Assembly (NCBI GenBank): GCA_021840255.1
Contig: JAKBYX010000003.1
Coordinates: 123,180 to 187,179 of the forward strand
Origin: Nitrospirota bacterium
GTDB taxonomy: Bacteria; Nitrospirota; Thermodesulfovibrionia; Thermodesulfovibrionales; JdFR-88
Reading direction: 5' to 3'
DNA length: 64,000 bases
Shown here: positions 13,542 through 32,600 of the stretch, in pieces
Position numbering within the stretch: position 1 is the first letter of the stretch
Layout: each line of letters opens with the position of its first letter
Program-made: the position numbers and the translations under genes
The notes under the pieces: model-generated
Told to the model about the DNA's origin: nothing
The model's input: the letters and a program-made list of their open reading frames with translations, nothing else
The model's database searches: none

Positions 13542-13702
13542 CTTTTTTGTTTCTTCACTTGGCCCTCCATGCGAGCCATGCTGGCACATGGTCCCGCCTC
13601 AAGACGCTGCATCCAGCCCGGCTCGTGCCAGTCGATATCCGGCCCGGATGACTGCAAAAAAAACAAAAAACAAAAAACCAAAAACAAAAAGGAGGCCTTT
13701 AT

Positions 13703-14626: not shown

Positions 14627-14808
14627 TGACGTTCGAGCAGGCAAACAATCTTACCGGCGTGGCTGAAATGGCGATGTCAGCGGCGGTGCAGGTGGGCGTG
14701 GAGATCGCCAGGGCCGTAAACGAGAGCCGGGAGCTCTCCCAGGCGGACAAGGACGCGCTTGTGGCCAGGATAAAGGCGGCGCAGGCCTCAGTGCCGGTGT
14801 GGGAGTAG
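14626..14808 (+). CDS. Hypothetical phage protein
   Basis: 60-aa ORF overlapping upstream stop. Confidence 0.5.
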   Translation: MTFEQANNLTGVAEMAMSAAVQVGVEIARAVNESRELSQADKDALVARIKAAQASVPVWE

Positions 14809-14891
14809 AAATGGGTTCGAATCCTTTGTCTTTGATGGGGAATGGGGCGAAGCCCCATACATCTAAAGGGGTGGAGGGCGGGAAAAGATAA

Positions 14892-15197
14892 ATGTCCTGG
14901 TTTTCCCCACAGATAATGCAGGCCCTCATAAACGCGGGCGGGGGCCTGCTGATCGCCCTGGTTATCCTGCTTGGCCTTTACCGCCTGGCGGACAAGCACG
15001 GCACGCAGTTCATCCATGCGCAGCAGGCCCAGGCGGTGGCCATGGGCAAGCAGGCCGAAGCGATGGAGGAGATGAAGACCTCGATAAAGGAATTCATCGG
15101 CCGGGACAACTCGGAGCACAGGGAGATACTGATCTTGCAGAAACTCACAATTGACAAATTAAAGGGTCTGGAGGAGTCGCTTAATGCAAAAAAATGA
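14892..15197 (+). CDS. Small membrane phage protein
   Basis: N-terminal TM segment and coiled C-terminus. Confidence 0.55.
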   Translation: MSWFSPQIMQALINAGGGLLIALVILLGLYRLADKHGTQFIHAQQAQAVAMGKQAEAMEEMKTSIKEFIGRDNSEHREILILQKLTIDKLKGLEESLNAKK

Positions 15198-15234
15198 TAT
15201 CACCCGCCAGTTCTTCTTTGGAGGCAACAGATAG

Positions 15235-15294
15235 ATCATGGAAGCCAGGAAAGAAAGATATTAAATCATGGATGCCAGGAAAGAAAAATACAGG
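15235..15294 (+). repeat. 30-bp tandem duplication covering a start codon
   Basis: ATCATGGAAGCCAGGAAAGAAAGATATTAA / ATCATGGATGCCAGGAAAGAAAAATACAGG. Confidence 0.8.
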
Positions 15295-15567
15295 CGCGTT
15301 CGAGGGGCGATCCTCAAGCTTCTGGCTTATGAGCACCCACGTCCTGTGGATTCCAAAGTCATACACCTGCTGCTGGACGACCTCAAATACTCCATTACCG
15401 AGGAAGAGTGCCAGAGCCACATCTGCTATCTCTCCGAAAAAGGGCTTGTCCACAGGGAACTTCGCAAGTGCAGGGGTATCCGGCTGGAGATGGTCACCAT
15501 CTCCCCCACTGGTCTCGATGTGCTGGATGGCTTTATCGCGGACATCGGTGTGGACACAAGATTATGA
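15268..15567 (+). CDS. Winged-helix-like phage protein (Mu gp26-region type)
   Basis: Position before gp27-like gene; wHTH-like sequence. Confidence 0.5.
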   Translation: MDARKEKYRRVRGAILKLLAYEHPRPVDSKVIHLLLDDLKYSITEEECQSHICYLSEKGLVHRELRKCRGIRLEMVTISPTGLDVLDGFIADIGVDTRL

Positions 15568-15995
15568 TGGACACCAAAGGTAAAAATACCCCGGAAAACA
15601 TCGAACTGGCCTTTGAGGTGTTTCGCGCCAACGGGGGCAACAAGGTCCGCACCATCGCGGACCTCGGGAGCCGCGGCCTTCGCATCTCCCGCCTGACGCT
15701 GGACCGGTGGGCGAAACAGAACAGTTTTTACGACCGCCTGGTCACCGGGGACTCCCGGTTCTCGTTCGAAGAAAGAATGATGCTAAAGCTCGTGGCGCAG
15801 ATAGAGAAATACGAGAAATATTTTGACGCCAAAACGGAATTGGACAACCAGGCAGTACATGCCTACACGAACCTGCTTAAGACGGTGATAGAGCTGTCCC
15901 GGAAATTGAAGCTTAAAGAGAAAAAAAGCACGCCAGAACAGCTGAAGGCGGAGGCGGAAAAGATACTGGAGGCGGAGTATGGGATCAAGAGGTAA
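15564..15995 (+). CDS. Mu gp27-like (DUF3486-type) putative small terminase
   Basis: HTH-like N-terminus, charged C-terminus, gene order gp27-gp28-gp29. Confidence 0.65.
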   Translation: MMDTKGKNTPENIELAFEVFRANGGNKVRTIADLGSRGLRISRLTLDRWAKQNSFYDRLVTGDSRFSFEERMMLKLVAQIEKYEKYFDAKTELDNQAVHAYTNLLKTVIELSRKLKLKEKKSTPEQLKAEAEKILEAEYGIKR

Positions 15996-17433
15996 ACCCA
16001 CCCCTGTCCCTCCAGGGAGGGGACTGACACAACCAATCCTCCTGCCATATCAGCGGCGCTGGCTGAACGACCGGTCTCAAAAAAAGATATGGCTTGCCGC
16101 CAGGCAGATAGGAAAGTCCTTCGCGCTTTCCATGGAGGCCGTGGTGGAGGGGCTGGAGGAGCGCTGCAACAACCTGATACTCTCGTCTTCGGAGCGCCAG
16201 AGCAGGGAAGTGATGCAAAAGGTCTTTTCTCACCTGCGTTATCTGAAGATAAGGAGCGAGGACGTGATATGTGCGGAGAGGGAGTCCCGCGCAGAGGTGG
16301 AGCTGCCTAACGGGTCCCGCATAATAAGCCTGCCCGCAAACCCTGACACGGTGCGCGGTTTCTCGGGAAACGTCTTGCTGGATGAGTTCGCGTTCCACAG
16401 GGACTCAAGCGCGATCTGGAAAGCCATGTACCCGGCCATTACAAGGGGGAAACGCATCCGTGTCTCCTCCACGGCAAACGGCAGATCCAATATGTTTTAC
16501 CGCCTCTGGACAGACAGCGATTTTTCAAAACATGAGACCAGCATCCATGAGGCCAGGGCCCAGGGCCTGGCAGTGGACATCAGGGCACTGAGAAGCGGCA
16601 TCACGGACCCTGATTCATGGGCCCAGGAATATGAGTGCAGGTTTTTGGACGAGGCCACCGCGTTTATTACCTATGAGATGATCCAGGCCTGCGAGGACGA
16701 GGGGGCGGCGAAAGAATTGGGAGATTCAATACCGTTACGTAGGGGCGCGGTTTCCGCGCCCGCCGTTGACGGCGAATCAGGGCGGGGAAACCCCGCCCCT
16801 ACAACGGATGGGGAATTTTATTTAGGCATGGATATCGGACGCAAGGGCGACCTGACCATCTTCTGGCTTTGGGAGAAGGCCGGAGACGTGTTCTGGACCC
16901 GCATGGTGAAGGAAATGAGGAACGCTGCCTTCGCGGTGCAAAGGGATTTTTTGTATGGGCTGCTGGACGGTTCTGTAGGGGCGCGGTTTCCGCGCCCGCC
17001 GTTGACGGCGAATCAGGGCGGGGAAACCCCGACCCTACAAAAAATCCGGATCCGCCGCTGCTGCATAGACTCTACCGGCCTGGGCGCTCAATTGGCCGAG
17101 GAGGCGATCACGAAGTTCGGGCCCACCGTTGAGGCGGTAACGTTCACGCAAAAGGTCAAAGAGGATTTGGCTGTCACGCTCCGGCGCCGCTTCGAGGACC
17201 GGCAGGTCCGCATACCTGCCGGCAGGGACATCCGGGAGGATATCCATTCGGTAAAAAAATTCACCACGGCAGCCGGGAACATCCGGTTCGACGCGGAGCG
17301 GACGGAGCTGGGCCACGCGGACAGGTTTTGGGCCGCGGCCCTTGGACTTCACGCAGGCAGCGCGCCGTCCGCCGTCATAGAGTTCGAGTCCATGGGCGCA
17401 AGGAGATTTTTCAATATGGGGGGATATCTATGA
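15979..17433 (+). CDS. Mu gp28-like terminase large subunit
   Basis: ARQIGKSFALSMEAV Walker A-like; NVLLDEFAFHRD Walker B; FYLGMDIGRKGDLTIFW nuclease domain. Confidence 0.9.
   Translation: MGSRGKPTPVPPGRGLTQPILLPYQRRWLNDRSQKKIWLAARQIGKSFALSMEAVVEGLEERCNNLILSSSERQSREVMQKVFSHLRYLKIRSEDVICAERESRAEVELPNGSRIISLPANPDTVRGFSGNVLLDEFAFHRDSSAIWKAMYPAITRGKRIRVSSTANGRSNMFYRLWTDSDFSKHETSIHEARAQGLAVDIRALRSGITDPDSWAQEYECRFLDEATAFITYEMIQACEDEGAAKELGDSIPLRRGAVSAPAVDGESGRGNPAPTTDGEFYLGMDIGRKGDLTIFWLWEKAGDVFWTRMVKEMRNAAFAVQRDFLYGLLDGSVGARFPRPPLTANQGGETPTLQKIRIRRCCIDSTGLGAQLAEEAITKFGPTVEAVTFTQKVKEDLAVTLRRRFEDRQVRIPAGRDIREDIHSVKKFTTAAGNIRFDAERTELGHADRFWAAALGLHAGSAPSAVIEFESMGARRFFNMGGYL
16739..16804. repeat. 66-bp palindromic element, copy 1, in-frame inside terminase
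   Basis: gtaggggcgcggtttccgcgcccgccgttgacggcgaatcagggcggggaaaccccgcccctacaa. Confidence 0.92.
16975..17040. repeat. 66-bp palindromic element, copy 2, in-frame inside terminase
   Basis: 65/66 identical to 16739-16804. Confidence 0.92.
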
Positions 17434-18800
17434 GCAAAGACAGAAAAACGGGGGGCAGGGGAAAGGACATCATAACCACTGACGCCAACCAGGCGCGGAT
17501 AATCGGAAACGCCTTGGCGCAACCCTTGAATTATCCGGAGGCGGACACAAGGCCTATCACAGGAGTGGAGGTCTCCTCCCAGATATCGGATCCCTTCTGG
17601 GCATATTACACGGGAAAGATACTGCTGAATCCGGACAAGACACTCCGCACGGAAGGGATAAACAACACCGAACTTTACGAAGACTTGGCCAGGGACCCAC
17701 AGGTGAGGGGCAATCTGCAGACCCGGCGCCTAGCCGTCATAGGCAGGCAATGGCTGGTCACGCCGGCGTCAGGCAGCAAGCGCGACCAGCAGATCGCGGA
17801 TTTTGTCAAAGAGGTTCTGCTGGGTTTCGATTTCGACAGCGCGCGATACAACCTTCTTCAGGGCATCCTCACCGGCTTCAAGATCTCGGAGATCATGTGG
17901 GAGTATTCCCAAGGCGATGTATGGATAAAAGAGATGATAGCCAAGCCGACACGCAGATGGTCCTTTGGACTTGCGCGCGAGCTGAGGCTGATAACCAGGC
18001 GCGAGATGATGAACGGTTCTCCGGTGCCTGACAGGAAATTCCAGGTGTTCCGCTATAGCTCCGACAACGGCAGCCCTTACGGAGATGGCCTTGGCTCAAG
18101 CCTATGGTGGCCTGTGTGGTTCAAGAAAAACGCCATAAAGTTCTGGATGATCTTCTCCGAGAAGTTCGGCTCCCCCACGGTTGTGGGCAAGTACCCGGCA
18201 GGTACGCCGCCAGGGCAGCAGGACGCCCTTTTGCAGGCGCTACAGGCCATGCAGCAGGAATCCGCCATAAAGATCCCGGACACCATGCAGATAAGCCTGA
18301 TAGAGGCCCAGCGCTCCGGGGCACTGAACAACTATGAGATGCTCTGCTCGTTCATGAACCAGGAGATATCCAAGGTCATCATGGGACAGACACTCACGAC
18401 CGAGGCCGGGCACAGCGGAAGGGCGGGGGCAGGAGGGTCGGCGGCCGCCGCGGTGCACGAAGAGGTGAGGGAGGATTACATCAGGGCAGACGCGGACCTG
18501 CTTTCGAACGCCTTGAACCGCCAGCTTATCAAATGGATTGCCGATTACAACTTTCCAGGGGTCAGTAAATATCCGCAGATCCGGATCCGGACGGAGGAGA
18601 AAGACCTAAAACCGCTCGCCGACCGGGACGCGGTCATACAAAAAATGGGTCTTAAAATACCGGCTTCATACGCCTATGAGACATACGGCATTCCGGAACC
18701 GCAGGGAGGTGAAGACGTCCTCACTCCCTTACCGGGCGCTGTCCGGAAAGTGGAAACGGGAACCGGTGAAAAGACACACGTGGCCAGCCTTCCTCTGTGA
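17430..18800 (+). CDS. Mu gp29-like portal protein (DUF935-type)
   Basis: ATGA overlap with terminase; WPVWFKKNAIKFWMIFSEKFGSPTVVGKYPAG. Confidence 0.88.
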   Translation: MSKDRKTGGRGKDIITTDANQARIIGNALAQPLNYPEADTRPITGVEVSSQISDPFWAYYTGKILLNPDKTLRTEGINNTELYEDLARDPQVRGNLQTRRLAVIGRQWLVTPASGSKRDQQIADFVKEVLLGFDFDSARYNLLQGILTGFKISEIMWEYSQGDVWIKEMIAKPTRRWSFGLARELRLITRREMMNGSPVPDRKFQVFRYSSDNGSPYGDGLGSSLWWPVWFKKNAIKFWMIFSEKFGSPTVVGKYPAGTPPGQQDALLQALQAMQQESAIKIPDTMQISLIEAQRSGALNNYEMLCSFMNQEISKVIMGQTLTTEAGHSGRAGAGGSAAAAVHEEVREDYIRADADLLSNALNRQLIKWIADYNFPGVSKYPQIRIRTEEKDLKPLADRDAVIQKMGLKIPASYAYETYGIPEPQGGEDVLTPLPGAVRKVETGTGEKTHVASLPL

Positions 18801-18851
18801 CTCTGATAAAACGCCAGGGCGAAAACATAAAGACAGGAGGATGTTAAAGAG

Positions 18852-20288
18852 ATGTGGATAGCGGTATTTAAAACAGGCAGACATACGGACTCAAAGGGCA
18901 ACGAAAAGACTTGGACGGAAGGCGATCTGGACAACATGGTTGCCCAATATGATCCCAAATCCCACGAGGCTCCGGTGGTCATCGGCCACCCAAAGGACAA
19001 CGCGCCGGCATACGGCTGGGTGGAAGGATTGAAGCGCGCCGGTGACACGCTCTGGGCGGAAATAAGGCCCACGGTTGCCGAATTCACAGATTGGCTCAAG
19101 GCCGGGCTTTTTAAAAAGCGTTCTATTTCGCTCTATCCGGACATGACGCTGAAGCACATAGGCTTTCTTGGAGCGATGCCGCCAGCTGTGAAGGGCTTGC
19201 CTGATTTCGCGTTCAATGGCCCGGATGCGGCAGTGATCGAGTTTGAGGAAGGGGAAGGATTCCGCCCGTTTTTATCTTCAGAAAAAATAGATTCTGGCCG
19301 GAATGACTTCACGGAAGCGGATAAGGCGGCACAGGAATCCAGGGCCAGGAAGCACGGCATAAGCGCGAAGGAGGGCGGCAACGTCACGAAGCCCTCCAAG
19401 TACGCGGATGTGCCGGACGATGAGTTCGGGGACCCGGTCAATTACCGCTACCCGCTTGACGAGGAGCATATTCACGCGGCCCTGGCCTATTGGACCAAGC
19501 CCAAGGACAGGGAGCAATATTCCAAGGAGGAGGTGGCCAAGATAACGGCAAGGATCCTCGCTGCGGCCAAAAAGCACGGCGTGGATATGGATAAGGACAA
19601 GTTCAAATTCAGCGAGACCCAAATGGATTCCCGCCTGCGCGGGAATGACAACAGGAAAGGAGGAAGTATGAATTTTTGGGATGAGCTTAAAGGCTTCCTG
19701 AAGGGAAAGGGCCTAGAGGTGGACAGCGACCCCTCCAGCAAAAACCCCGGAGCCTTCAGCGAGGCGGACGTAAAGGCCGCGGTGACTGCCGCGGTGGAAA
19801 AGGCGAAGGCTGATATCGATGCCAGCTTCGCCGAAAAAGAGGCTGCATTGAAGGCCAAAGAGGTGCTGCTTGTCACGCAGGCGGCTGACGCCAGGAAAAG
19901 GGAGATCGCGGAGTTTTGCGAGAGCCTCAAGCAAAAAGGCATCCTCACCCCGGCGATGGAAAAGCTTGGCATGGGGATAACCAGCTTCATGCAGGCCGTC
20001 GCTGGGATTGGCGAGACGTACGAGTTCGCCGAGGCGGCCGAGGATGGCAAAAAAGCCAAACAGAGCCCGCTTGAGTTCATGCAGGCCTTTTTGTCCGGAC
20101 TGCCCAGGGCCATAGAGTTCAAGGAAGTGGCGAAGGACGAGGACGATCCGGGCGGCGGCGACATGGACGCCAAACGGGAGCGCGCCATAAAAAAGCACAT
20201 GGCTGACAACGGCATGGGCTACAAGGAAGCGATGCTGGCGGTATCAAAGAAACACCCGGAATTATTCGGGCGGGAAGCAAAAAAGTAA
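18852..20288 (+). CDS. Mu I-like head maturation protease with scaffold C-terminus
   Basis: GHPKDNAPAYGWVEGLKRAGDTLWAEI...FKKRSISLYPDMTLKHIGFLGAMPPAVKGL; middle KPSKYADVPDDEFGDPVNYRYPLDEEHIHAALAYW domain. Confidence 0.88.
   Translation: MWIAVFKTGRHTDSKGNEKTWTEGDLDNMVAQYDPKSHEAPVVIGHPKDNAPAYGWVEGLKRAGDTLWAEIRPTVAEFTDWLKAGLFKKRSISLYPDMTLKHIGFLGAMPPAVKGLPDFAFNGPDAAVIEFEEGEGFRPFLSSEKIDSGRNDFTEADKAAQESRARKHGISAKEGGNVTKPSKYADVPDDEFGDPVNYRYPLDEEHIHAALAYWTKPKDREQYSKEEVAKITARILAAAKKHGVDMDKDKFKFSETQMDSRLRGNDNRKGGSMNFWDELKGFLKGKGLEVDSDPSSKNPGAFSEADVKAAVTAAVEKAKADIDASFAEKEAALKAKEVLLVTQAADARKREIAEFCESLKQKGILTPAMEKLGMGITSFMQAVAGIGETYEFAEAAEDGKKAKQSPLEFMQAFLSGLPRAIEFKEVAKDEDDPGGGDMDAKRERAIKKHMADNGMGYKEAMLAVSKKHPELFGREAKK
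19627..19646. repeat. dRS3-like 20-bp palindrome in the protease ORF
   Basis: ATTCCCGCCTGCGCGGGAAT fits ATTCCCN8GGGAAT. Confidence 0.8.
19668..20288 (+). CDS. Nested in-frame scaffold protein (Mu Z-like)
   Basis: Internal ATG in the same frame preceded by AAAGGAGGAAGT SD; product lysine/alanine-rich coil. Confidence 0.55.
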   Translation: MNFWDELKGFLKGKGLEVDSDPSSKNPGAFSEADVKAAVTAAVEKAKADIDASFAEKEAALKAKEVLLVTQAADARKREIAEFCESLKQKGILTPAMEKLGMGITSFMQAVAGIGETYEFAEAAEDGKKAKQSPLEFMQAFLSGLPRAIEFKEVAKDEDDPGGGDMDAKRERAIKKHMADNGMGYKEAMLAVSKKHPELFGREAKK

Positions 20289-20324
20289 ATGACTGCTTAA
20301 AAAACGAAAGGAGAAAAAACACTC

Positions 20325-20711
20325 ATGTCAATGAGAGCAACATCAGGCATCAGCAAGGCGGCAAAGACCACGGCCGCCATAGCAACGCAGTTTTTGATCG
20401 CGACGGTCGGCGCAGATGACGACACCTTTTCCGCGGCGTCCGCATCAACAGACCCGCTTATAGGCGTCTTTCAGACCACGACGGCCAACGCGGGGGATCA
20501 CGCGGAGGTCATGGTGACGGGAATAAGTAACGTCGTTCTGGGCGGCACGGTCACCAGGGGCGATTATATCAGTTCGGACGCCAACGCCAACGGCGTGACC
20601 GCTGCTCCGGCTGCGGGCGTGAACGCAGATGTTCTGGGCATCGCCCTTGAAAGCGGAGTTGCCGGAGACATAATCGCCGTCCGGATCGCCCCCGGGCGGA
20701 TACAGGGTTAA
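20325..20711 (+). CDS. Head decoration protein (DUF2190-like)
   Basis: Small Ala/Gly/Thr-rich protein between scaffold and capsid. Confidence 0.65.
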   Translation: MSMRATSGISKAAKTTAAIATQFLIATVGADDDTFSAASASTDPLIGVFQTTTANAGDHAEVMVTGISNVVLGGTVTRGDYISSDANANGVTAAPAAGVNADVLGIALESGVAGDIIAVRIAPGRIQG

Positions 20712-20741
20712 TAAAAAGCAAGAAAGGAGAATTAAAAACAC

Positions 20742-21680
20742 ATGCCACCTGTAGGACAGTTACATATTGACAGCGCATTGACCAACCTCTCGGTGCGCTA
20801 CCAGAACGAGGCGATGATATGGCCTGCCGTGCTGCCGCTCATCCCCGTGAACAAGAGGTCGGACAAGTACTTCGTCTATAACAAGGCGGACTCTTACACC
20901 CTGGCCGATGACACCGTTTTTCCGAAGGCTCTTCCCAATGAGATGGACTGGGGCACGGCTACCGGAAATTACTCCGTAACGGACCATGCCTTTGGAGACT
21001 GGCTCCCTGAGGAGGTCATCGAGAACGCGGATGTGCCGCTTCAGCCCGAGGTGGACACCAACGATTACCTGAACCTGCTGCTGGACATCGCCCAGGAGGC
21101 CAGGGTGGCAAACGTGGTGTTCAACGCGGCCAACTACAGCGCCTCCAACCAGGTGACGCTTTCCGGCACCTCGCAGTGGAGCAGCTCCAGCGCCACGCCG
21201 ATCGAGGACATCCAGAACGCGATCGAGAGCTGCTTCCAGCGCGCAAACACACTGGTGTTCGGCATAGACACCTGGAAGGCCCTGCGCACCAACCCGCAGA
21301 TACTGGATGCCGTGAAGGCGGCCACCAGGCTGCAGGGGTACAACGGAGGCATGGCCACCAGGGACGAGGTTGCCTCACTCTTCGAGGTGGACCAGATCCT
21401 CGTAGGCCGTGGCAGGTACAACACGGCAAAGCAGGGGCAGGCCCCCAGCTTCTCCAGGCTCTGGGGCAAGCATGCGGCCGCGCTCTACGTGGAGAAGGCT
21501 CCCGGCATAAGGAGCATCACCTTCGGAGCCACCTTCTGCGAGACCAGACGCCAGACGATGAGGGATTTTGATCCCAAGAGGGGCGTTAAGGGCGCGCATT
21601 ACATCAAGGTGTCCTGGAACTCTTCCGAGGTGGTCATCGCCAACGACGTAGGGTATTTCATTCAGAACGCCACGGCATAG
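20742..21680 (+). CDS. Major capsid protein
   Basis: Position and sequence (VRYQNEAMIWPAVLPLIPVNKRSDKYFVYNK...FGATFCETRRQTMRDFDPKRGVKGAHYIKVSW). Confidence 0.85.
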   Translation: MPPVGQLHIDSALTNLSVRYQNEAMIWPAVLPLIPVNKRSDKYFVYNKADSYTLADDTVFPKALPNEMDWGTATGNYSVTDHAFGDWLPEEVIENADVPLQPEVDTNDYLNLLLDIAQEARVANVVFNAANYSASNQVTLSGTSQWSSSSATPIEDIQNAIESCFQRANTLVFGIDTWKALRTNPQILDAVKAATRLQGYNGGMATRDEVASLFEVDQILVGRGRYNTAKQGQAPSFSRLWGKHAAALYVEKAPGIRSITFGATFCETRRQTMRDFDPKRGVKGAHYIKVSWNSSEVVIANDVGYFIQNATA

Positions 21681-21719
21681 GCGGTAGCCGGGCAGAACGC
21701 GACGGCGTAGGAACAAAAA

Positions 21720-21791
21720 CAGGGCGGGGAAACCCCGCCCCTACATACGGCCTTTAAATGCGTGCGTAGGGGCGCGGTTCCCGCGCCCGCC
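21720..21791. repeat. Palindromic element, half-swapped variant, copy 3
   Basis: cagggcggggaaaccccgcccctac-atacggcctttaaatgcgtgc-gtaggggcgcggttcccgcgcccgcc. Confidence 0.88.
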
Positions 21792-21820
21792 TTATGGGAT
21801 TCATCAAAAAAGGAGACATC

Positions 21821-21982
21821 ATGGCTGACACAAAGAAATACACGGTCCACGGGACGACCATAAAGCACGGCAAGGGCAAGGAGCACAAACTCTACGAGCA
21901 CGGAGAGACAATAGAGCTTCCCGATGAGGAAGCCGCCCCGCTCAAAAAGCATTTGATCGAGGTGGAAGGGAAAAAGAAATGA
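21821..21982 (+). CDS. Small hypothetical phage protein (53 aa)
   Basis: AAAGGAGACATCATG start; MADTKKYTVHGTTIKHGKGKEHKLYEHGETIELPDEEAAPLKKHL. Confidence 0.7.
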   Translation: MADTKKYTVHGTTIKHGKGKEHKLYEHGETIELPDEEAAPLKKHLIEVEGKKK

Positions 21983-21994
21983 CGGACGAAAAAA

Positions 21995-22065
21995 CAGGGC
22001 CGGGCAACCCCGCCCCTACAACGGTTTTTAAATGCGTGCGTAGGGGCGCGGTTCCCGCGTCCGCC
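21995..22065. repeat. Palindromic element, half-swapped variant, copy 4
   Basis: cagggccgggcaaccccgcccctac-aacggtttttaaatgcgtgc-gtaggggcgcggttcccgcgtccgcc. Confidence 0.88.
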
Positions 22066-22079
22066 GTCAGGGAGGTCTT

Positions 22080-22546
22080 ATGTCTTACTGCCAATTAACC
22101 GATCTGCAAAACGTCATGCTCAACGACACCCTCATCGCCCTTACCGACGATGAGGGCCTTGGGCAGGTGAACACGGACCGCATAAACGAGTGCATCGCGG
22201 AGGGAGACAGCCTTATAGACGGCTACTGCGGGGCCCGGTACGTGGTGCCATTTAGCCAGGCGCCTGTGGTGGTGCGCAGCATCAGTGTGGCGCTGGCCAT
22301 CCATAACCTATACGCCCGGCGCGGGTGGAAGAGGTCCCCCCGGTGCACGAGAACCGTTACAAGGACGCCCTGCAGCGGCTTAAGGACATATCAAACGGCG
22401 CGATGACCCTGGGCGCGGCGGAGTCCGCAACCATGACCGTCACCGAGGAGCCGGAGATCGGCATAAGCACCTCCACGGACAACCGCGTGTTCACCAGCGG
22501 CAATACGCCAGGCGTTTCAGACGGCTCGACCCTGGGTGGTTACTGA
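22080..22546 (+). pseudogene. Mu gp36-like (DUF1320-type) head-completion gene, apparent 1-nt frameshift near 22325
   Basis: ORFs 22080-22406 and 22325-22546 read as one protein ...NLYARRG|VEEVPPVHENRYKDALQRLKDISNGAMTLG if one G is restored. Confidence 0.75.
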
Positions 22547-22992
22547 TGACCTTCGTCGACATTGAAAACGGCATCATCTCCGCGCTGAAGGCGGCGCTCC
22601 CGTATCTGAAGGCCTGCGAGACCTACGCGGGGCAGCTTGAGAAGGAAGTGGCGGAGCTTCCCAAGGGCTTCCCGGCCGCTTATGTGGCCTACCAGGGTTC
22701 CCAGTTCCAGTGGGTGGACGGGGAAAATTGGCAGGAGCTACCCACATTCAAGGTGCTCATTGCGGCCAGGAGCTACCGCATAGTCAGCGGCATCAACGAG
22801 GACGTGCGGGAAAACCCGGACACCGGCGCGTATCGTGTGGTGACGGACGTGCTTAACGCGCTTACAAACCAGACCTTCGGGCTGGACATCTACAAGCTGC
22901 GGCCGGTGAAAACGGAACTTGTCGTGATCACGAAGACAACGGCGAGCTACGGCATCGAGTTTACGACGATGTTCGATACAAGTGGCAAATGA
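22546..22992 (+). CDS. Mu gp37-like (DUF1834-type) protein
   Basis: Position after gp36-like; MTFVDIENGIISALKAALPYLKACETYAGQLEKE. Confidence 0.75.
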   Translation: MTFVDIENGIISALKAALPYLKACETYAGQLEKEVAELPKGFPAAYVAYQGSQFQWVDGENWQELPTFKVLIAARSYRIVSGINEDVRENPDTGAYRVVTDVLNALTNQTFGLDIYKLRPVKTELVVITKTTASYGIEFTTMFDTSGK

Positions 22993-23025
22993 CAAGTGCA
23001 AATAACAAATGAAAGAGGTAAAAAA

Positions 23026-23451
23026 ATGAAAAAGGGTTTATTCGGTATATTGGCACTCTGCATGTTCTTTGGGGTGAGGTCTGCGGTCGCGGGCAGCATA
23101 TGGGGGCAGCCCATGATAAGGCCATCGATGTCCCTGACCATGGGGCCATTCGGCTCCGTCTCCACAAGCGCTCCGGCCTTTGACATTGGCATGCCCATAG
23201 GCTATGGCAAGTGCACGTTCACCCAGGTAAACGGCACAGCCTCCAGGACGTTTATCCTCCAGGGCTCGAACGTTAGCGCATCCGCCGGTTTTACAAACGA
23301 CGTCTCCGTAACGGTGACAAACAACCCAGCCACGTGGGCTTTTTTCTTTAACCAGGTCCCTAACGAATGGTGGCGAGGCCGGTGTGACTCCGGCTGCGGC
23401 ATAGGCAACGAGATAACAGTGGAGTGCACATTCGGGGGGCTGAACCAATGA
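23026..23451 (+). CDS. Exported hypothetical protein
   Basis: Signal peptide MKKGLFGILALCMFFGVRSAVAG; SD GAAAGAGG. Confidence 0.65.
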   Translation: MKKGLFGILALCMFFGVRSAVAGSIWGQPMIRPSMSLTMGPFGSVSTSAPAFDIGMPIGYGKCTFTQVNGTASRTFILQGSNVSASAGFTNDVSVTVTNNPATWAFFFNQVPNEWWRGRCDSGCGIGNEITVECTFGGLNQ

Positions 23452-23479
23452 GAAGGTGCCGGAATTTTCTTCCCTTACG

Positions 23480-23548
23480 AATAAAACCGGGCGGAATCTT
23501 TCTTAAGAAGGATTCCCGCCGCGCCCAAGGGCGTAAGCCCGTTTTATT
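23480..23548. repeat. Nested palindromic element
   Basis: Outer arms AATAAAACCGGGC / GCCCGTTTTATT; inner 24-bp palindrome GGAATCTTTCTTAAGAAGGATTCC. Confidence 0.6.
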
Positions 23549-23561
23549 AAAATTTGCGGGA

Positions 23562-24505
23562 ATGGCAACACAAGTTAAAATATTCGCCCTGATCGTTTCG
23601 CTGGCCGTGGGTCTTTGCGCGTGCCAGGGAGAACCGGCCTGGGCTGCCGGAACGACGGAGCATTACGGAGGAAATAGTTCCTTCGCGGGCGTTTCTTCCT
23701 TTAATGGGAGAATGGGTGCCGTAACTCCTTCTTACAATGATTATTCATTTTCACAGGTTTCAGGCACTGTAAGTCCGAGCCAGTTGTCACAGCCTCTAAC
23801 CGGGATATCTCCAAGTTCAACTCCATTGGTCCCATCATCCGGGAACTACAGGATATACTTCAACAAGTCAGATAACCATTGGTATGGTTTAAGCAATTCG
23901 GCCGGCACGATTAACGGTCCTGCGCAGTTAGATATGCCCGGTGTCATAAACGCCACCTTCCAGGACCCGGTAACCGGCGTTTCCCAGACATCAACCCCCC
24001 AGACCCCGGCATCGGGAGACTACAAGTTCTATTTCAACTCCGCGGCAGGCCACTGGTACGGCATCAGCAACACATCCGGCACGGTCACGGGCCCTGTGCA
24101 GATAGACGGGGGCGCAGGTCAGCCAATCGTAATTTTGGCATATCCTAATTTGGCCGTAAATGCATCCACAACAGAATGGATACCAATAACTGGCCAATTG
24201 GGATTCTCGGGGTTAAACAATACGACGCAGGCAATGGTAATGCCTGTGGCCTGCACGATGCAGGACCTGTATGTTTCGTGGGAGGGGACTCAGTCGTCCA
24301 CGGGATCGCTGGCGATCAGTCTTTACCATAACGGCACAGTGACGCCGCTTGCCATAACGATAGCTGCTGGAGCCGGTACCGGCACCCTCAGCGATCTGGC
24401 GATACAGTGGCGATAGCGGCGGGGGACACTGTGCAATATCAAATCGCAAACATCGCGACGGCAACGTCCGCGAAAATTGCGGCCATGACGATCGTATGCA
24501 AATGA
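23562..24505 (+). pseudogene. Exported/lipoprotein fibre-like protein, apparent 1-nt frameshift near the 3' end
   Basis: MATQVKIFALIVSLAVGLCACQGEPAWA signal; frame ends ...DLAIQWR* at 24416, while the -1 frame continues VAIAAGDTVQYQIANIATATSAKIAAMTIVCK* to 24505. Confidence 0.6.
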
Positions 24506-26148
24506 TGAAGAAGAAAAGGTTTTTATTTTTCCTTATGTTCCTGATGCTGTTGCAGGCCCCGGCCTGGGGAGCAACTTATTATATCGACTACGCAGGGGGC
24601 GCCGACTCCAACGCCGGGACATCAAAAACCACGCCCTGGAAACACCAGCCGTACATGGTGGGATTTACGGGCACTTATACGCACTCTGCCGGAGACATAT
24701 TTATTTTTAAAGGCGGCGTGACATGGGCGTATTCCGCGGCGGACCATATATTCCCAATGACCATTAAAGCCGGGGGCGCAACCGGAAACCCGGACCAGTA
24801 TGCAGTTGACAAGACATGGTATGCAGGCATTTCTTATATGCCTCCCGTTTTCGATGGCTGCCAGACGGCTGAAGGTCTGAATGTATGCGCATTGAACGGG
24901 GCGGCCACTTTGGGGAAAAACAGCTGGTTGGTTGGTGACGATAATGGGGTATTTTCCGTTTCAAATATCGTGATAAACGGGCTGCAGCTTCAGGATATAG
25001 GCGCGCCTGTAACAGCTGGAGGTGATGCCTCCGGCTCGGCAATCGCTTTTGAGAATTTAAATGCCATCGCAGTAGAAAACTGTATTATTTCTCCCCATGC
25101 GGCGCAGGCCTTTGCTTTTTCCAATTACAATAATGGAAGCCCGCGGAATGAAAGCTCAATTTACGTCCATGACAACCAGATAAGCTATGCCGGGCGGGGA
25201 GTGATTTACGGTTATCCGGGGTACACGGTCAATGATGTTCGCGTTTACAACAATAAGTGGGAAGGTCCGGGCCTCACGCTTGCCAGTGACATATACAACT
25301 ACGGAGGATATCACAATGACGGACTGATGGTAGGCTGTCCCGCTGGCTGCATCGCCAACGCTGTCAGCGTGACGAACATCGAGTTCAACAATAATCTTTT
25401 TAACGGGCAGTGGGAACACTGCACGGCCCAGTATTATTCAAACGGGGGAACAAGCAACACCTCCATCTATGACAATGTTTTTTCGATAGAGAACAATTCA
25501 TCAAATGGGAGCCCTATGCAGGATTTCGTGGACATGGGCTACAGCTCCGGGTTTGCCGACTGGGGGACCATAAACGTCTATAACAACACTTTTTCCAGCG
25601 ATGCGCTTGTGGGTTATAACAAGGGAGTAAATAACGGTTTTGCGATTAATTACCCCTCCACTGCCAGCCCCCTGGACATAAGCGTAAAGAACAATATTTT
25701 CTCGGGCGTGGCTACAGGCGTGATAGTAGGCCCCGGAACCTGGACGTCCCTGGCAATTGACGGCAACCTCTACAACGTGACAACCAGTGGAGGGTACGGG
25801 CACTTGGGTTACATTAATGGCACGTCTTATAACTCCCTTTCTGCCGCCTGTGCCGCCGGATACGACTGCAACAGCCTGGGAGGCAACAATTATTCAAGCT
25901 CGTATCCCGGTTTTACTTTGTTGCCCAATGGCACTTTAGGCAGCGGCAACTGGCAACTTCAACCGGGCTCACCGGCTATAAAAGAGGGAACGGACCTATC
26001 TTCCGTATTCACGGTCGATCTGGCAGGCAACCCGAGGCCATCAAATCATTGGGACATGGGCGCATACCAGACCTATTACCACCGTTGCAAATTGGGCGCG
26101 GGCGGCAGGATGAGCACTGCCAACGGCGGAAGGGTTTTGATTAATTAG
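24496..26148 (+). CDS. Exported parallel beta-helix protein
   Basis: Signal peptide MKKKRFLFFLMFLMLLQAPAWGA; repeated N-rich strands (VYNNKW, FNNNLF, IYDNVF, VYNNTF, VKNNIF). Confidence 0.75.
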   Translation: MQMMKKKRFLFFLMFLMLLQAPAWGATYYIDYAGGADSNAGTSKTTPWKHQPYMVGFTGTYTHSAGDIFIFKGGVTWAYSAADHIFPMTIKAGGATGNPDQYAVDKTWYAGISYMPPVFDGCQTAEGLNVCALNGAATLGKNSWLVGDDNGVFSVSNIVINGLQLQDIGAPVTAGGDASGSAIAFENLNAIAVENCIISPHAAQAFAFSNYNNGSPRNESSIYVHDNQISYAGRGVIYGYPGYTVNDVRVYNNKWEGPGLTLASDIYNYGGYHNDGLMVGCPAGCIANAVSVTNIEFNNNLFNGQWEHCTAQYYSNGGTSNTSIYDNVFSIENNSSNGSPMQDFVDMGYSSGFADWGTINVYNNTFSSDALVGYNKGVNNGFAINYPSTASPLDISVKNNIFSGVATGVIVGPGTWTSLAIDGNLYNVTTSGGYGHLGYINGTSYNSLSAACAAGYDCNSLGGNNYSSSYPGFTLLPNGTLGSGNWQLQPGSPAIKEGTDLSSVFTVDLAGNPRPSNHWDMGAYQTYYHRCKLGAGGRMSTANGGRVLIN

Positions 26149-26174
26149 ACCACACGAAGGAGGTTTTTTAAAAA

Positions 26175-27218
26175 ATGACATTAAGCGCATCTGGAGTAAA
26201 TGTAAAAGCGGCGGTCGCAAAGGCCTCGGCGTGGGGGGCGGCGGTGGCCTGCGGGGCAGACAGCGGCATCCTCATAAAGCCGCACACGCTCAAAAGGACC
26301 AGGCAGTCCCTGATAGACGACTCTCTGGGCCTGTACTTCCCCCAGAATGCGGTGAACGCCCAAATAAAAGTAGAGGGAGATATCCCCTCGTACCTGCGCT
26401 ATGACGGGCTCGACATGCTCATCGCCCTGGCTATGGGCGCAACCGGCGGCTTGCCCGCCGGACAGGGAGCGACCACCGCGTACGCCCAGACCTTTAGCCT
26501 GGCAAACACGCTGGACACCTATTTCGCCACGTTCATCGTAAACAACGGGGTGAACATAGACGAGTACACGACGGTGAAGATCACGGGATTCACTTTAACT
26601 GGTGAGGTCGGAAAGCCGTGGGAGATAAAATTCCATGCGATTGCCATAGACCGCATAACCGGCTCCACGGTGAACACGCCCACGACCTTCAACAACGTCA
26701 CGTTCTTTGAGACCGGAGCCCGTGTGCTTTTCGGCCAGTCTGTTTTTTGGATGGGCAATAACAGCGGAAGCGCGCTATCATCCTCAAACGCCATCTTCCC
26801 GAACAAGTTCGAGCTCCAGTTCAAGCGCAAGATGGCGGGCAAATACGGCACCGGCACGAGCATGGACCTTATAGACGAGCCCACGAATGACGGCCTGCCG
26901 GAAATAACGCTTAAGCTGACGATGCCCCGCTACACGGCAGCCACGTACTTCAATAACTGGGACCCGATGACGCAGCAGATGCTCCAGATGACGGCCACCG
27001 GCGCGAACATTGCGAGCACCTACAACAGGAGCTTCCAGATACAGTTTCCGGCCCTCCAGCTCAGCAATGTGGACCTGCCCATGAAAGAGGGAATACTGGA
27101 GCACCCGCTTGAGTTCAAGGCGCTCTCCATCGGGACGGCCCCGGCGGGGATGACCGGCGTGACAAACCCGTTTGCAATCAATGTGGTGAACAGGCAGAGC
27201 GCGAATGTGCTGGCGTAG
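26175..27218 (+). CDS. Phage tail tube/major tail protein
   Basis: Position, size, SD AAGGAGG; TFNNVTFFETGARVLFGQ..., TLKLTMPRYTAATYFNNW. Confidence 0.65.
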   Translation: MTLSASGVNVKAAVAKASAWGAAVACGADSGILIKPHTLKRTRQSLIDDSLGLYFPQNAVNAQIKVEGDIPSYLRYDGLDMLIALAMGATGGLPAGQGATTAYAQTFSLANTLDTYFATFIVNNGVNIDEYTTVKITGFTLTGEVGKPWEIKFHAIAIDRITGSTVNTPTTFNNVTFFETGARVLFGQSVFWMGNNSGSALSSSNAIFPNKFELQFKRKMAGKYGTGTSMDLIDEPTNDGLPEITLKLTMPRYTAATYFNNWDPMTQQMLQMTATGANIASTYNRSFQIQFPALQLSNVDLPMKEGILEHPLEFKALSIGTAPAGMTGVTNPFAINVVNRQSANVLA

Positions 27219-27229
27219 TTTTTGTTGCC

Positions 27230-27303
27230 ATTCCCGCAAGCGCAGCGCGACGGGAATCCAGGTTGAAGTCAAAGTGGATGCCCGATTACTGTCCTCGGGC
27301 ATG
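27230..27303 (-). repeat. Composite palindromic repeat (ATTCCCG module + 34-bp module), copy A
   Basis: 34 nt 27270-27303 is the exact reverse complement of 27865-27898. Confidence 0.9.
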
Positions 27304-27338
27304 ATGTAAAAACTAAATTCAAAGGAGGTTTTTGGTTC

Positions 27339-27746
27339 GTGGAAATAGGCGGCTTAAAGAGAAACGATTTTGAGGTGTGGGTGCCTTTTGGAGAGGAGGG
27401 CGACCCGGCAAAGGTGCTCATTCGGTATGTAAGCCGGTCGCAGATCCAGGAGATAAGGAAAAAGGCTACCGTCACATCATATACCCGGCAGCACCAGAAA
27501 GAGGAGCAGTTTGACGGTCTCAAAGCGGATGTGCTACTTGGCCGCGCGGCCGTGGGCGGATGGAAGGGGTTTACGATGGAGGATAAGGATTACCTCTATT
27601 CCCCTGAAAACTGCGACTTCCTGATGAAGGAATGGCCGGAGTTCGCCAGATTCGTAAACAACGTGTGTGTGGACCTGCAGGCGCTTCAGGACGAGGAGGC
27701 AAAGCAGATGGCAAAAAACTCCTCGCGCACATCCGGTTCAGACTAG
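27339..27746 (+). CDS. Tail assembly chaperone, 0-frame product (lambda gpG-like)
   Basis: Position between tube and tape region; overlapping -1 ORF. Confidence 0.75.
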   Translation: MEIGGLKRNDFEVWVPFGEEGDPAKVLIRYVSRSQIQEIRKKATVTSYTRQHQKEEQFDGLKADVLLGRAAVGGWKGFTMEDKDYLYSPENCDFLMKEWPEFARFVNNVCVDLQALQDEEAKQMAKNSSRTSGSD

Positions 27747-28084
27747 ACCATCCGGGTGTGCGCTGTGAGAACTGCATCGATATTGAGGAGGTGGACGGGG
27801 TTGCGGCGCCGTGCAGAGGGGGAAGTCAAAATGGATTCCCGCTTAAGACGTGCGGGAATGGCGTCATGCCCGAGGACAGTAATCGGGCATCCACTTTGGA
27901 GTTCCCTGGTTGCCCTATTCCTCCTCTTTCCGCTGAGGAACTCCGGATACTCGATATGCGGGGGCTGCTTTCTGGCCTCAAAGGCTTGGTGGACGCTGGA
28001 ACGGTGCTTATGATGCATCATGCAACGCTTGAGGACCTGAGGGCTCTGGCCGCGGTGGAAGACGGCTTGAGGGAAAAGAGATAA
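27339..28084 (+). CDS. Tail assembly chaperone, -1 frameshift product (gpGT-like)
   Basis: Slippery A_AAA_AAC 27713-27719; fusion reads ...EEAKQMAKN|LLAHIRFRLDHPGVRCENCIDIEEVDG... Confidence 0.78.
27713..27763 (+). promoter_or_regulatory. Programmed -1 ribosomal frameshift signal
   Basis: AAAAAAC (27713-27719), 5-nt spacer, 12-bp stem 27725-27736 / 27752-27763, loop holds the 0-frame TAG. Confidence 0.82.
27835..27898 (+). repeat. Composite palindromic repeat, copy B, in-frame in the chaperone extension
   Basis: ATTCCCGCTTAAGACGTGCGGGAAT + CATGCCCGAGGACAGTAATCGGGCATCCACTTTG. Confidence 0.9.
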
Positions 28085-28163
28085 GATCCGATGCGTTAGG
28101 GGCGAGAGGTTCGAGAAAGGTCCTCACGCTCTCAAAAAGAGCAACAGCAGGGAGAAGATAAAC

Positions 28164-28901
28164 ATGGCAAAAATAAGGATCGGGCGAAGAACGGGGACAG
28201 AAGCGGATGCGTTTGGCATGTATGGCGGCGGCCTGGCATTCCAGGATGCGGGCACATTGCAGGATTTGGGAAACACTCAGGTTTTTTTTAGTGATGAGCC
28301 GTCAGCCGATGCGGCAATTGATGACAATATAGCCTCCCTCGATAGTGCCGTTTTTTCCTTGAGCGGCTCTTTCTTATCTGTCGATCAGGATTTTAACAAT
28401 ATGGCAGGCTCTATTGATTCTGACATGAACAGCATGTTCAGCGATGCGGATACGAGCGCCTTTATGAGAGACGGAGGAGGACGAAGCACCCGGCTCAGCC
28501 GCAAAGAAGGGAGGGGCAGCAGTGACTCAAGTGCGTACGATACTGCCGGTATGTATGCCCAGGCCCAGGCCGGACTTGCTGAGGCAATGAACCCTGACCT
28601 GGAAAGCGAATTTGGAGAATCCTTTGCCAACGCACTGCAGCTGCAATACCAGGCCCAGGTGAACGCCTATAACGACCTCACTGGCATGAACGTGGTGAAG
28701 GCCCCCGGCACGGGAGAGCAGGTCAGTACCGGAGCCGGCACGGTAAACGTGAACATCTCCGGCCTGACGATACAGGGCGCCGGTGATCTGAGCAATGTGA
28801 CTGACCTGTCGGGCCAGATAGAAACCGCCATCGCACAGAACATCCAGCGCAACACAAGCCCCATAACCACGGCACTAAAGGAGGCGGGTTTCCAGCGATA
28901 A
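28164..28901 (+). CDS. Short tape-measure-like protein
   Basis: Position after chaperones; C-terminus VNVNISGLTIQGAGDLSNVTDLSGQIETAIAQNIQRNTSPITTALKEAG resembles tape-measure C-termini. Confidence 0.45.
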   Translation: MAKIRIGRRTGTEADAFGMYGGGLAFQDAGTLQDLGNTQVFFSDEPSADAAIDDNIASLDSAVFSLSGSFLSVDQDFNNMAGSIDSDMNSMFSDADTSAFMRDGGGRSTRLSRKEGRGSSDSSAYDTAGMYAQAQAGLAEAMNPDLESEFGESFANALQLQYQAQVNAYNDLTGMNVVKAPGTGEQVSTGAGTVNVNISGLTIQGAGDLSNVTDLSGQIETAIAQNIQRNTSPITTALKEAGFQR

Positions 28902-28902
28902 A

Positions 28903-30219
28903 ATGATGAAATCCTGCTATCAAAACATCCTCGAATCCTCCACTGTCTCCCTTTCCCAGGGCAGCCAGAACAATTCCTATCCGCTCTACCGGCTTTACGA
29001 CCGGGACATAGGGCGCATGTTCGCGGGATCCGCCGCGGCTACTACGGAGGTGAAGGCGGAACAGGGCGCGCTTATTCAAAACGCGATTGATTCCCTCTTC
29101 ATCCCCGCCGGGCATAATCTGGGCGGGATGCAATGCAACTTAAGCTTTTCAGACGATGACACCACTTACACGCAGGCCTTCCCGAATCTGCTCCCTTACA
29201 GCCAGGATTTTGAAAACGCTTGGTGGCAGAAAGATAATACGACCGTTACCGCCGATGCCGGTGCGGACCCGCTTTACGGAACACGGACGGCTGACCAGAT
29301 ATCGGATGGGACCGCAACCGGCATCCATGATCTTTTTGATGGCGCTCTCAGCGTTTATAATGGCGTTGTTTACACATTTTCGATCTATGCCAAATACATT
29401 TCCATGCAATATCTGCAGCTAACGATGGGGCGCGCCACCACAAGCGCGATCTATGCGAATTTTGACATTAAAAACGGATTGGTTTCCTTGCCCGTTTTAA
29501 TGGCGGGAAGCGGCGCTGTTGCAGTTTCTGCGAAGATAACGCCGGTAGATGGCGGCTGGTACAGGTGCGAGATCACAGGGTCCACCAATGATGCATCTTA
29601 TTTAAGGGCATTTTTTAACCCGTCAGATTCGGCTTCCTTTGCGCCTTCATACACTGGCAACAACAACACCATCTACCTCTGGGGAGCGCAGCTGGAAGCG
29701 GCCCCCTCCAATAATACCGCAAGCAATTATAACGGCACGTTCGGCTCCGCCCAGACGCTCACCCCCTCCGGAAGCGGTCTTATCCAGTATGGGTTCCCGC
29801 AGGCCATGACGCACCGGTACTGGAAGTTCACCATAACAAACCCCTCCGTTGCCCCCCAGTTCGCGGAGCTTTTTCTCACATCCACCTACACCTGGGAGAA
29901 ACTCCCGGCGCGCCCCGGAGGGCCCTTTGACGATGTGTTCAACGTGAAGAACGAGACCACGGCAAGCGGCCTGGACCGGTTTCTGGTATTCGGGAACTCC
30001 AGGCGGCAGCGGGTTTATAAAGTGGTGAACGCAGGAGCCACCCAGCAGGCGAATATTCTGGCCTTGAACGCCGCGTGGGCGGGATCAAAACCCTTCTGGC
30101 TCTATGACCACGAGGGCAACTGGATATACGGCAGGCTCAGAAAACCGATAGGGCTAAAGGAGACGGGCGCGGGCAAGTTCGGGTTCGATTTTGACTTTCT
30201 GGAGGTGCTGGGGTCATGA
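28903..30219 (+). CDS. Minor/distal tail protein with lectin-like insertion
   Basis: FSDDDTTYTQAF...YWKFTITNPSVAPQFAELFLTSTYTWEKLP scaffold interrupted by a ConA-like/CBM segment (NLLPYSQDFENAWWQKDNTTVTADAGADPLYGTRTADQISDG...). Confidence 0.6.
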   Translation: MMKSCYQNILESSTVSLSQGSQNNSYPLYRLYDRDIGRMFAGSAAATTEVKAEQGALIQNAIDSLFIPAGHNLGGMQCNLSFSDDDTTYTQAFPNLLPYSQDFENAWWQKDNTTVTADAGADPLYGTRTADQISDGTATGIHDLFDGALSVYNGVVYTFSIYAKYISMQYLQLTMGRATTSAIYANFDIKNGLVSLPVLMAGSGAVAVSAKITPVDGGWYRCEITGSTNDASYLRAFFNPSDSASFAPSYTGNNNTIYLWGAQLEAAPSNNTASNYNGTFGSAQTLTPSGSGLIQYGFPQAMTHRYWKFTITNPSVAPQFAELFLTSTYTWEKLPARPGGPFDDVFNVKNETTASGLDRFLVFGNSRRQRVYKVVNAGATQQANILALNAAWAGSKPFWLYDHEGNWIYGRLRKPIGLKETGAGKFGFDFDFLEVLGS

Positions 30220-32600
30220 CCACCATCCTTCAGGCACGGGATTCCTCCCGCATAAAGCCGGTCTACCTGGTCCAGATAACCCTTAAAAACAGCGGGCCCA
30301 CCCTTTATTTCTCGGACCGGAACATCACTGTAGGAGGCCAGCTTTACGAGGATTATCTGCATGACCTCTCCGGACTCGCCCAGGAGCTCAAGCGGGCGGA
30401 CTCCACGGCCCTGAACGTGAACCTGGAACTGGGCTTCCATAACGACAAGATAAGCTATAACGGCACCGATTACGCCCACCTGATAGATCTGGGGACAACG
30501 TATCCCTTCGAGACCAGCATATGCAGCATCTACGAGACTTATCTGGACGATAGCCAAAACCCGTCAGACACCGTGCTTATCTTCAAAGGGGTCCAGGACT
30601 GCCCGGCGAACATCGACCTGATGGGCTTTAAGTGCAAGGTAAGCACGATGCCCATGTATATGGACGCCCGCTGGCAGCAGGTGCAACTTGACACCGTGGA
30701 CTTCCCGGCCGCAACGGACGACGTGGGCAAATGGGTGCCCATCGTCTACGGCAGCGACATCCTCATACCCGCGCTAAGAGTGGATTGGAGCAAGACCACC
30801 CTGGTTTCCTCCATCGCGGCCACCGATACCTCCATGGAGATCACGGATGTGACCGGTTTTTCCGATTCAGGTTCCATAATGATCGACGACGAAGTCATTG
30901 CTTACACGGCAATCAGCAGCCGCATGTTGACGGGGATTACACGCGGAGCGTCTGGCACTTCAGCATCGCCCCATGGGGCGAATGCGGATGTGGTGCCGTA
31001 CCAATCTTCTTATGACTGGGTGCTTGCGGTCCATCCCCTTCAGTCGGTGGGAGATATCTTTGCCGAGATGGGCGGTAAACTGTGGCTCGTTACCAGCGGC
31101 ATTTCATCGCTCTTCGACGCGGACGGCTATATGAAGCTCCGGGCTTCCTCTGCCATAGGCGTGGGAGGAGTACTGGACAATATAAGCCTGGTGAACACCA
31201 CCGTAATAAACGACGGGATAACGGTAAACGACAGCATATCGCTGAACGATCCGGACCATTCCCATTCCATGACCGCGGGTGATCCGGTAATCGGCTCAGG
31301 CGCCGCAATCTCGGACAACGGTAACATTTCATGGTCGGGCAGCGCGGGAAATGTGATAGACCAGTGCGACACCACCTACATAAAGGCCCTGGGAAAATCC
31401 TTTTCCGGATGGGGGAAGATACAGATCAACTTCCCGGCCTACTCAGGGGCTGAGCCCACGGCGGTATACCTATGCATCACGCACCAGACCTATAGCGGCG
31501 GCGCAGTCACTGCGAGGGTCAGCGGCGATAATTCCACCTGGTACAATATAGACGGCTCTCAGCAAAAGGAGACGCAAAAGATATACTTTGGCACCACTGT
31601 GCCGTCCTCAATGTGGGCATATTTCAATAACCCAAGCGGCTCGACCGTTATGTACATGCAGGTCTTTGAGATGTGGCTGGAAGTGCACACGAGAGGAACG
31701 GCCTTTGCAACCGCCGGGATATCCAAGCAGGGCACCGTCACAAAATCCGGCACAGTCACCCTGAGCGGAGATGTTACGAAAGGCGGCACCGTCGTATCAA
31801 CCGTAACGGTAGAGCGCCTGCACGCGGTGGTAAACGGCTATGCGGATGACGCAAACGGCACGTACACCGGGACGGCCGGGGCGGTGATCGAGCGGCCGGA
31901 TTCCGTGATAAAGCACTTTTTGGAAGTGGCAAGCGGGCTATTTTCATCCGCAGATATAGACCCTGCTTCATTTTCCGCCGCTGGGGACTGGTACGCCACG
32001 AACGGCTACCAGTTGGCCTTCGCCCTGGATAAGAAGGTAAAGCCATCCCAGTGGCTCTCCCAACTGGCCCGGGAGAGCCGCAGCACGCTTGTTTATAACG
32101 CGGGCTTTTGGGAGCTTAACGTCATCCGGGATGCCGCGCCTGCCGCGGTGAAGACGATCTCCAAGGCTGACTTGGCCGGGCAAAACGCTATGTTCACCTT
32201 CGGGAAGACGGACTGGCAGAAGATCAGCAACTATTTAGTGGCATCCTTCGACAAGCAGTACACGACGATACCAGGGAAGAGCCAGTCCGGATGGCTGGGG
32301 ACGGCGCTGGCCCAGGACGCAACGAGCCAGGGCACCTACGGGATATTCAAAAAGGAGATACAGTTTGAGGCGGTCCGCACCCCCGCGATGGCACAGAGCG
32401 TATTAAATCACATGCTTCTGGAGGCCAAAAATCCGAACCTCACAGTTACCTTCCCGGTGTTCTGGGAGAATTTCGACCTGAAGGTGGGGGACACCATAGC
32501 CATAGAAAATGATATATTTGGCGGGGCGCTCTTTTTCATCGAGCAGATCATCCGCAAAGACGCATTCAGGGCTACGATAAAGGCGGTCGGGTGGTGGTAA
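30216..32600 (+). CDS. Large distal tail / receptor-binding protein
   Basis: ATGA overlap with upstream; IMIDDEVIAYTAISSRMLTGITRGASGTSASPHGANADV; tail-hub-like C-terminus. Confidence 0.6.
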   Translation: MTTILQARDSSRIKPVYLVQITLKNSGPTLYFSDRNITVGGQLYEDYLHDLSGLAQELKRADSTALNVNLELGFHNDKISYNGTDYAHLIDLGTTYPFETSICSIYETYLDDSQNPSDTVLIFKGVQDCPANIDLMGFKCKVSTMPMYMDARWQQVQLDTVDFPAATDDVGKWVPIVYGSDILIPALRVDWSKTTLVSSIAATDTSMEITDVTGFSDSGSIMIDDEVIAYTAISSRMLTGITRGASGTSASPHGANADVVPYQSSYDWVLAVHPLQSVGDIFAEMGGKLWLVTSGISSLFDADGYMKLRASSAIGVGGVLDNISLVNTTVINDGITVNDSISLNDPDHSHSMTAGDPVIGSGAAISDNGNISWSGSAGNVIDQCDTTYIKALGKSFSGWGKIQINFPAYSGAEPTAVYLCITHQTYSGGAVTARVSGDNSTWYNIDGSQQKETQKIYFGTTVPSSMWAYFNNPSGSTVMYMQVFEMWLEVHTRGTAFATAGISKQGTVTKSGTVTLSGDVTKGGTVVSTVTVERLHAVVNGYADDANGTYTGTAGAVIERPDSVIKHFLEVASGLFSSADIDPASFSAAGDWYATNGYQLAFALDKKVKPSQWLSQLARESRSTLVYNAGFWELNVIRDAAPAAVKTISKADLAGQNAMFTFGKTDWQKISNYLVASFDKQYTTIPGKSQSGWLGTALAQDATSQGTYGIFKKEIQFEAVRTPAMAQSVLNHMLLEAKNPNLTVTFPVFWENFDLKVGDTIAIENDIFGGALFFIEQIIRKDAFRATIKAVGWW

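Follow-up and report, generated by a model that had tools for sequence, protein, structure and literature searches.

Evidence for a programmed -1 ribosomal frameshift in a prophage tail assembly chaperone gene of a Nitrospirota bacterium

The window, by which we mean the whole 64,000-nucleotide stretch of Nitrospirota DNA that was analysed, contains a predicted phage tail assembly chaperone gene whose stop codon lies inside a second open frame, shifted by -1. The question raised by this junction is whether the second frame is translated as an extension of the chaperone and, if so, by which route the ribosome would reach it.

The candidate signal at the gene junction

Counted from the GTG start of the chaperone gene, the codons at the junction read GCA AAA AAC, which places the heptamer in the correct phase for -1 slippage as A AAA AAC (Table 1). 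A spacer of 5 nt separates it from a stem of 12 bp (including one U-G pair) in which GCGCACATCCGG pairs with CCGGGTGTGCGC, and the 0-frame TAG (27744-27746) is located in the loop. The -1 frame remains open as far as position 28084, and a fusion protein would be 248 aa in length. The initial annotation had described the heptamer and its phase, the spacer, the stem, the TAG in the loop and the size of the fusion, and this description was found to be correct to the base. The predicted RNA fold of the stem has an energy of -25.0 kcal/mol (z = -3.4), and none of 200 dinucleotide shuffles was equally stable. The location of the TAG in the loop was considered as a functional feature and rejected, as in relatives the distance from the heptamer to the following stop codon varies between 0 and 63 nt. 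A search of the window against Rfam gave no match, and a tRNA search of the window found none.

Table 1. Features at and around the candidate frameshift site (positions in the window).
Feature	Position	Strand	Description	Evidence
Tail tube gene	26175-27218	+	Upstream neighbour	Pfam Phage_tube_2, E=7.6e-10
Tail assembly chaperone (G-like)	27339-27746	+	0-frame, 135 aa, GTG start, AAAGGAGG upstream	phrog_313, E=1.4e-11
GAGGAGG, possible internal Shine-Dalgarno-like stimulator	27693-27699	+	13 nt 5' of heptamer	Anti-SD energy profile
Slippery heptamer A AAA AAC	27713-27719	+		In frame at the same place in 16/17 sites
-1-frame extension (T-like)	27719-28084	+	121 aa; conserved Cys at extension positions 16, 19, 32 and 65	Separate -1-frame match in relatives
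Stem-loop	27725-27763	+	27725-27736 pairing with 27752-27763; 15-nt loop with 0-frame TAG	Fold z -3.4; covariation
In-frame insert, ~81 nt (edges approximate)	27824-27904	+	Between Cys3 and Cys4; two palindromes of a low-copy dispersed repeat	Absent from relatives
Short tape-measure-position gene	28164-28901	+	245 aa, downstream neighbour	C-terminus matches same-position proteins of G008 and G004

The heptamer motif alone is neither rare nor exceptional in the window. Open reading frames of at least 100 aa contain 44 in-frame A_AAA_AAN sites, and at four of these (the site at 27713 and three others) the downstream 60 nt fold at -25 kcal/mol or lower, an energy reached by 2.3% of all 60-nt segments. 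Because the bare motif recurs, comparison with relatives had to decide, and the significance of the signal derives from its conservation there. A possible additional element is the GAGGAGG stretch upstream of the heptamer; in a dnaX-like signal, a Shine-Dalgarno-like stimulator would be expected 9-14 nt 5' of the slip site. The mean anti-Shine-Dalgarno energy over the 17 sites described below peaks 6-11 nt 5' of the heptamer, at about -5 kcal/mol compared to a background of -0.95 kcal/mol. This affinity mostly follows from the encoded amino acids, and it exceeds that given by synonymous codon choice only weakly (Stouffer -2.2); as a third signal element the stretch is suggestive only.

Conservation of the junction and selection on the stem

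A profile of the fusion protein was used to search for relatives and gave matches in 11 of the 178 genomes of the order and in 15 of the 396 genomes sampled in the phylum. Two adjacent profile matches in different frames were present in 14 of these 15 genomes, the exception being the most distant one. In total, 17 sites from the 15 genomes were read; the sites share descent, and counts over them do not represent independent events. The initial annotation had proposed a programmed -1 frameshift and had named absence of the heptamer or stem in orthologs as a finding that would speak against it. The gene was found to be broken at the same place in all 17 sites, with A AAA AAC in 16 of them and nine A's (A AAA AAA within the run) in the remaining one (G057a). 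The stem is kept, with compensatory changes, in 15 of the 16 alignable sites, and the -1-frame extension is conserved in 16 of 16, so that the proposal withstood this check. At the most distant site (G197) the heptamer is kept and is followed by a different extension that also contains cysteines.

No ATG, GTG or TTG occurs in the -1 frame between the upstream stop and the heptamer in 15 of the 17 sites. This upstream stop is located 3-42 nt before the heptamer in 11 sites, including four in which the distance is 3-9 nt. Since the extension lacks a start codon of its own in most sites, frameshifting is the only plausible route to it. The homology of the extension starts at the slip codon, and among the sites read no relative was seen in which chaperone and extension form one uninterrupted frame. 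Both parts are under purifying selection: in a comparison of the close G010 and G008 copies, dN/dS is ~0.21 in the extension and ~0.10 in the chaperone. A search of the genome contigs with the single protein gave only one match, which was short and weak. Among INPHARED phages only weak matches were obtained, to chaperones of T5-like Demerecviridae, and the two such regions inspected lack both an in-frame XXXYYYZ close to the stop and homology to the extension. One chaperone copy (L007; G008, C18) carries an in-frame stop after 81 codons of the chaperone frame and, judged by this stop, is probably inactive.

The alignment of 16 sites allowed the stem to be examined pair by pair. Of all cells in this alignment 86% are paired, compared to at most 51% when the partner strand is slid, and changes on both sides occur at 6 of the 13 stem pairs, giving 17 double-change cells versus 3.9 in shuffles. 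Since the stretch forming the stem is translated, synonymous codons were also resampled with the -1-frame protein kept fixed. The observed fold was stronger than the mean of the resampled sequences in 16 of the 17 sites (mean z about -2; z of -2 or lower in nine), and for the window site the z was -3.2 (3/1000). These comparisons indicate that the downstream stem at short spacing is under selection. The exception was the nine-A site of G057a (L009, ~1882-1890), which has no stable stem (z +0.8). It is possible, judging by this site, that it has switched to transcriptional slippage; the same genome also holds a copy of the usual type.

The cysteine-containing extension and the surrounding prophage module

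The four cysteines of the extension (C-x2-C-x12-C, a variable loop, and then C) are invariant in the 15 aligned members, which suggests metal binding. No convincing match to the extension was found in Pfam, PHROG or NCBIfam, a PDB profile search gave chance-level matches only, and an AlphaFold model of the extension alone was meaningless (pLDDT 38). In the window copy, the insert adds about 27 residues between the third and fourth cysteine. The repeat from which it is built is also present in inverted orientation at 27233-27304, including a 35-nt perfect inverted copy at 27270-27304 just upstream of the chaperone gene, and has further copies elsewhere in the genome; a search for the repeat with a strict paired-palindrome pattern found nothing. 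Other in-frame inserts are found in the same loop in L004 (G039) and L047 (G295). The Cys3-Cys4 loop thus tolerates insertions, as different inserts are present in these copies and in the window.

The initial annotation's assignment of the 0-frame product as a tail assembly chaperone agrees with PHROG 313 (phrog_313, tail assembly chaperone), which was detected in all 10 members scanned (best E 3e-12). The match to Pfam TAC_5 is weak (E=0.0038) and below the cut-off. The surrounding structural genes encode terminase, Mu-type portal, protease, capsid, Gp36, Gp37, tail tube, chaperone, the tape-measure-position protein and tail proteins. Relatives keep the gene order around the chaperone, with a tail tube homologue upstream in 7 of the 7 larger regions examined. 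The gene at the tape measure position downstream of the chaperone is long in four relatives, and its products in relatives range from 172 to 1046 aa, several of them with similar C-termini. These lengths would imply very short tails in some members. The 245-aa protein of the window has no family match in Pfam or PHROG.

The structural genes belong to a compact prophage module of ~20 kb (12981-32600), which has lysis-like genes in addition to those for terminase and Mu-type portal. The proteins scanned in this module include none for integration or replication, and the module may represent either a remnant or a small phage. The gene for the gp36 head-tail adaptor (22080-22546) is split into two frames near 22326 in the window and consists of one frame in relatives; the split may be a mutation or an assembly error. 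With gp36 disrupted, the window prophage may be dead. The suggestion that selection has kept the tail module functional therefore holds for the family and not necessarily for the window copy, in which gp36 is disrupted, the protein at the tape measure position has only 245 aa and the extension contains a repeat.

Alternative routes, proposed mechanism and known systems

We consider it very probable that the signal at 27713 is a programmed -1 ribosomal frameshift in the prophage tail assembly chaperone gene. This reading is drawn from sequence comparison, namely from the signal itself, its conservation and the covariation of its stem, with no other obvious route to the extension. The frame could also be changed during transcription, by RNA polymerase slipping on the A run, and both the all-A composition of the run and the G057a site, with its nine A's and no stable stem, are as polymerase slippage predicts. 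This explanation is nevertheless highly improbable, as in the other 16 sites the run is limited to six or seven A's, ends in C and keeps a strict X_XXY_YYZ phase, and as a covarying stem at near-fixed spacing is not needed by polymerase slippage. When a run of about nine or more is taken as the criterion for transcriptional slippage, only G057a has such a run, and the window has six A's.

We give even less weight to two separate overlapping genes, the second of which would be started internally or by coupled re-initiation. In the window copy, -1-frame start codons do exist at 27632 (ATG) and 27665 (GTG), but the absence of such starts from nearly all sites, the nearness of the upstream -1-frame stop in most of them and the beginning of extension homology at the slip codon argue against independent initiation. 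A sequencing error or a recent frameshift mutation in one decaying gene is hardly conceivable: an indel, whether real or an artefact, is present in gp36 ~5 kb upstream, but at the chaperone junction the same break and the same heptamer recur in 15 genomes belonging to several families, and the sequence on either side of the break is under purifying selection.

Under programmed ribosomal frameshifting, the majority of ribosomes would pass A AAA AAC and terminate at the TAG, yielding the 135-aa chaperone. A minority would be delayed by the stem-loop 5 nt beyond the heptamer, slip by -1 on AAA AAC and read on to 28084, yielding the 248-aa fusion with the four-cysteine extension. If the two products act as lambda G and GT do, the tape measure protein would be coated by the shorter one, and the longer one, expected at a fixed low ratio to the shorter, would bring in tail tube subunits. 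That slippage occurs, the rate at which it occurs and the role of each product are what we infer from lambda.

The AAC heptamer is among the best for mammalian ribosomes. The initial annotation had called it efficient; it is in frame and conserved as described there, but in E. coli A AAA AAC is the weaker slip site when compared to A AAA AAG (PMC5009743). Of the 15 host genomes, 11 were found to have a tRNA-Lys(CUU), and the presence of a second lysine tRNA may be the reason why Thermus does not use ribosomal shifting at AAG (PMC5009743); the use of AAC instead of AAG would fit these two observations. A more comprehensive reading, in which the extension of the frameshift family binds metal, AAC was chosen to fit hosts with a separate tRNA-Lys(CUU), and one member swapped the stem-stimulated shift for transcriptional slippage on nine A's, is speculative and as a whole rather unlikely.

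The results extend the G/GT frameshift family by a set of prophages distributed across a phylum, in which the stem is supported by base-pair covariation. Naturally occurring variants in this set (A AAA AAC with a stem, nine A's without a stem, and tape-measure-position proteins of 172 to 1046 aa) make signal choice and product ratio testable. With no start codon in most copies, the extension will be missed or split by automatic gene callers. The frameshift is a well-known trick of phages, found here in a little-studied branch, and the finding is solid and mostly ordinary.

The slippery site of lambda is G GGA AAG. The likeness to lambda G/GT that had been noted initially is correct as to the same kind of chaperone frameshift, whereas the layout of the signal, A AAA AAC followed after 5 nt by a covarying stem, has more in common with dnaX than with lambda. 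The extension differs as well, being a four-cysteine domain without matches in family libraries. Shared with the chaperone frameshift of lambda G/GT and its relatives (Xu, Hendrix and Duda, 2004, as reviewed in PMC5009743) are a chaperone gene flanked by those for tail tube and tape measure, and a conserved -1-frame extension. E. coli dnaX (PMC5009743) likewise has an A-rich heptamer, an 11-12 bp stem-loop close downstream and, possibly in common with the sites described here, an upstream Shine-Dalgarno-like stretch, but there the heptamer is A AAA AAG and shifted ribosomes terminate early, whereas here the heptamer ends in AAC and the shift leads to a longer product. An AAAAAAC at the end of the chaperone gene with a proposed -1 fusion is also present in Acinetobacter phage Loki gp12/gp13 and in IME_AB3 (PMC5313236); the comparison with these phages covers slip site, position and proposed fusion. 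The Mu-like Pseudomonas siphophages PaMx73/D3112 (PMC4378225) combine Mu-type head genes and a long flexible tail with a predicted -1 shift in the tail assembly genes. The frameshift described here is of the lambda G/GT kind, a known kind that is new in its lineage and in its details.
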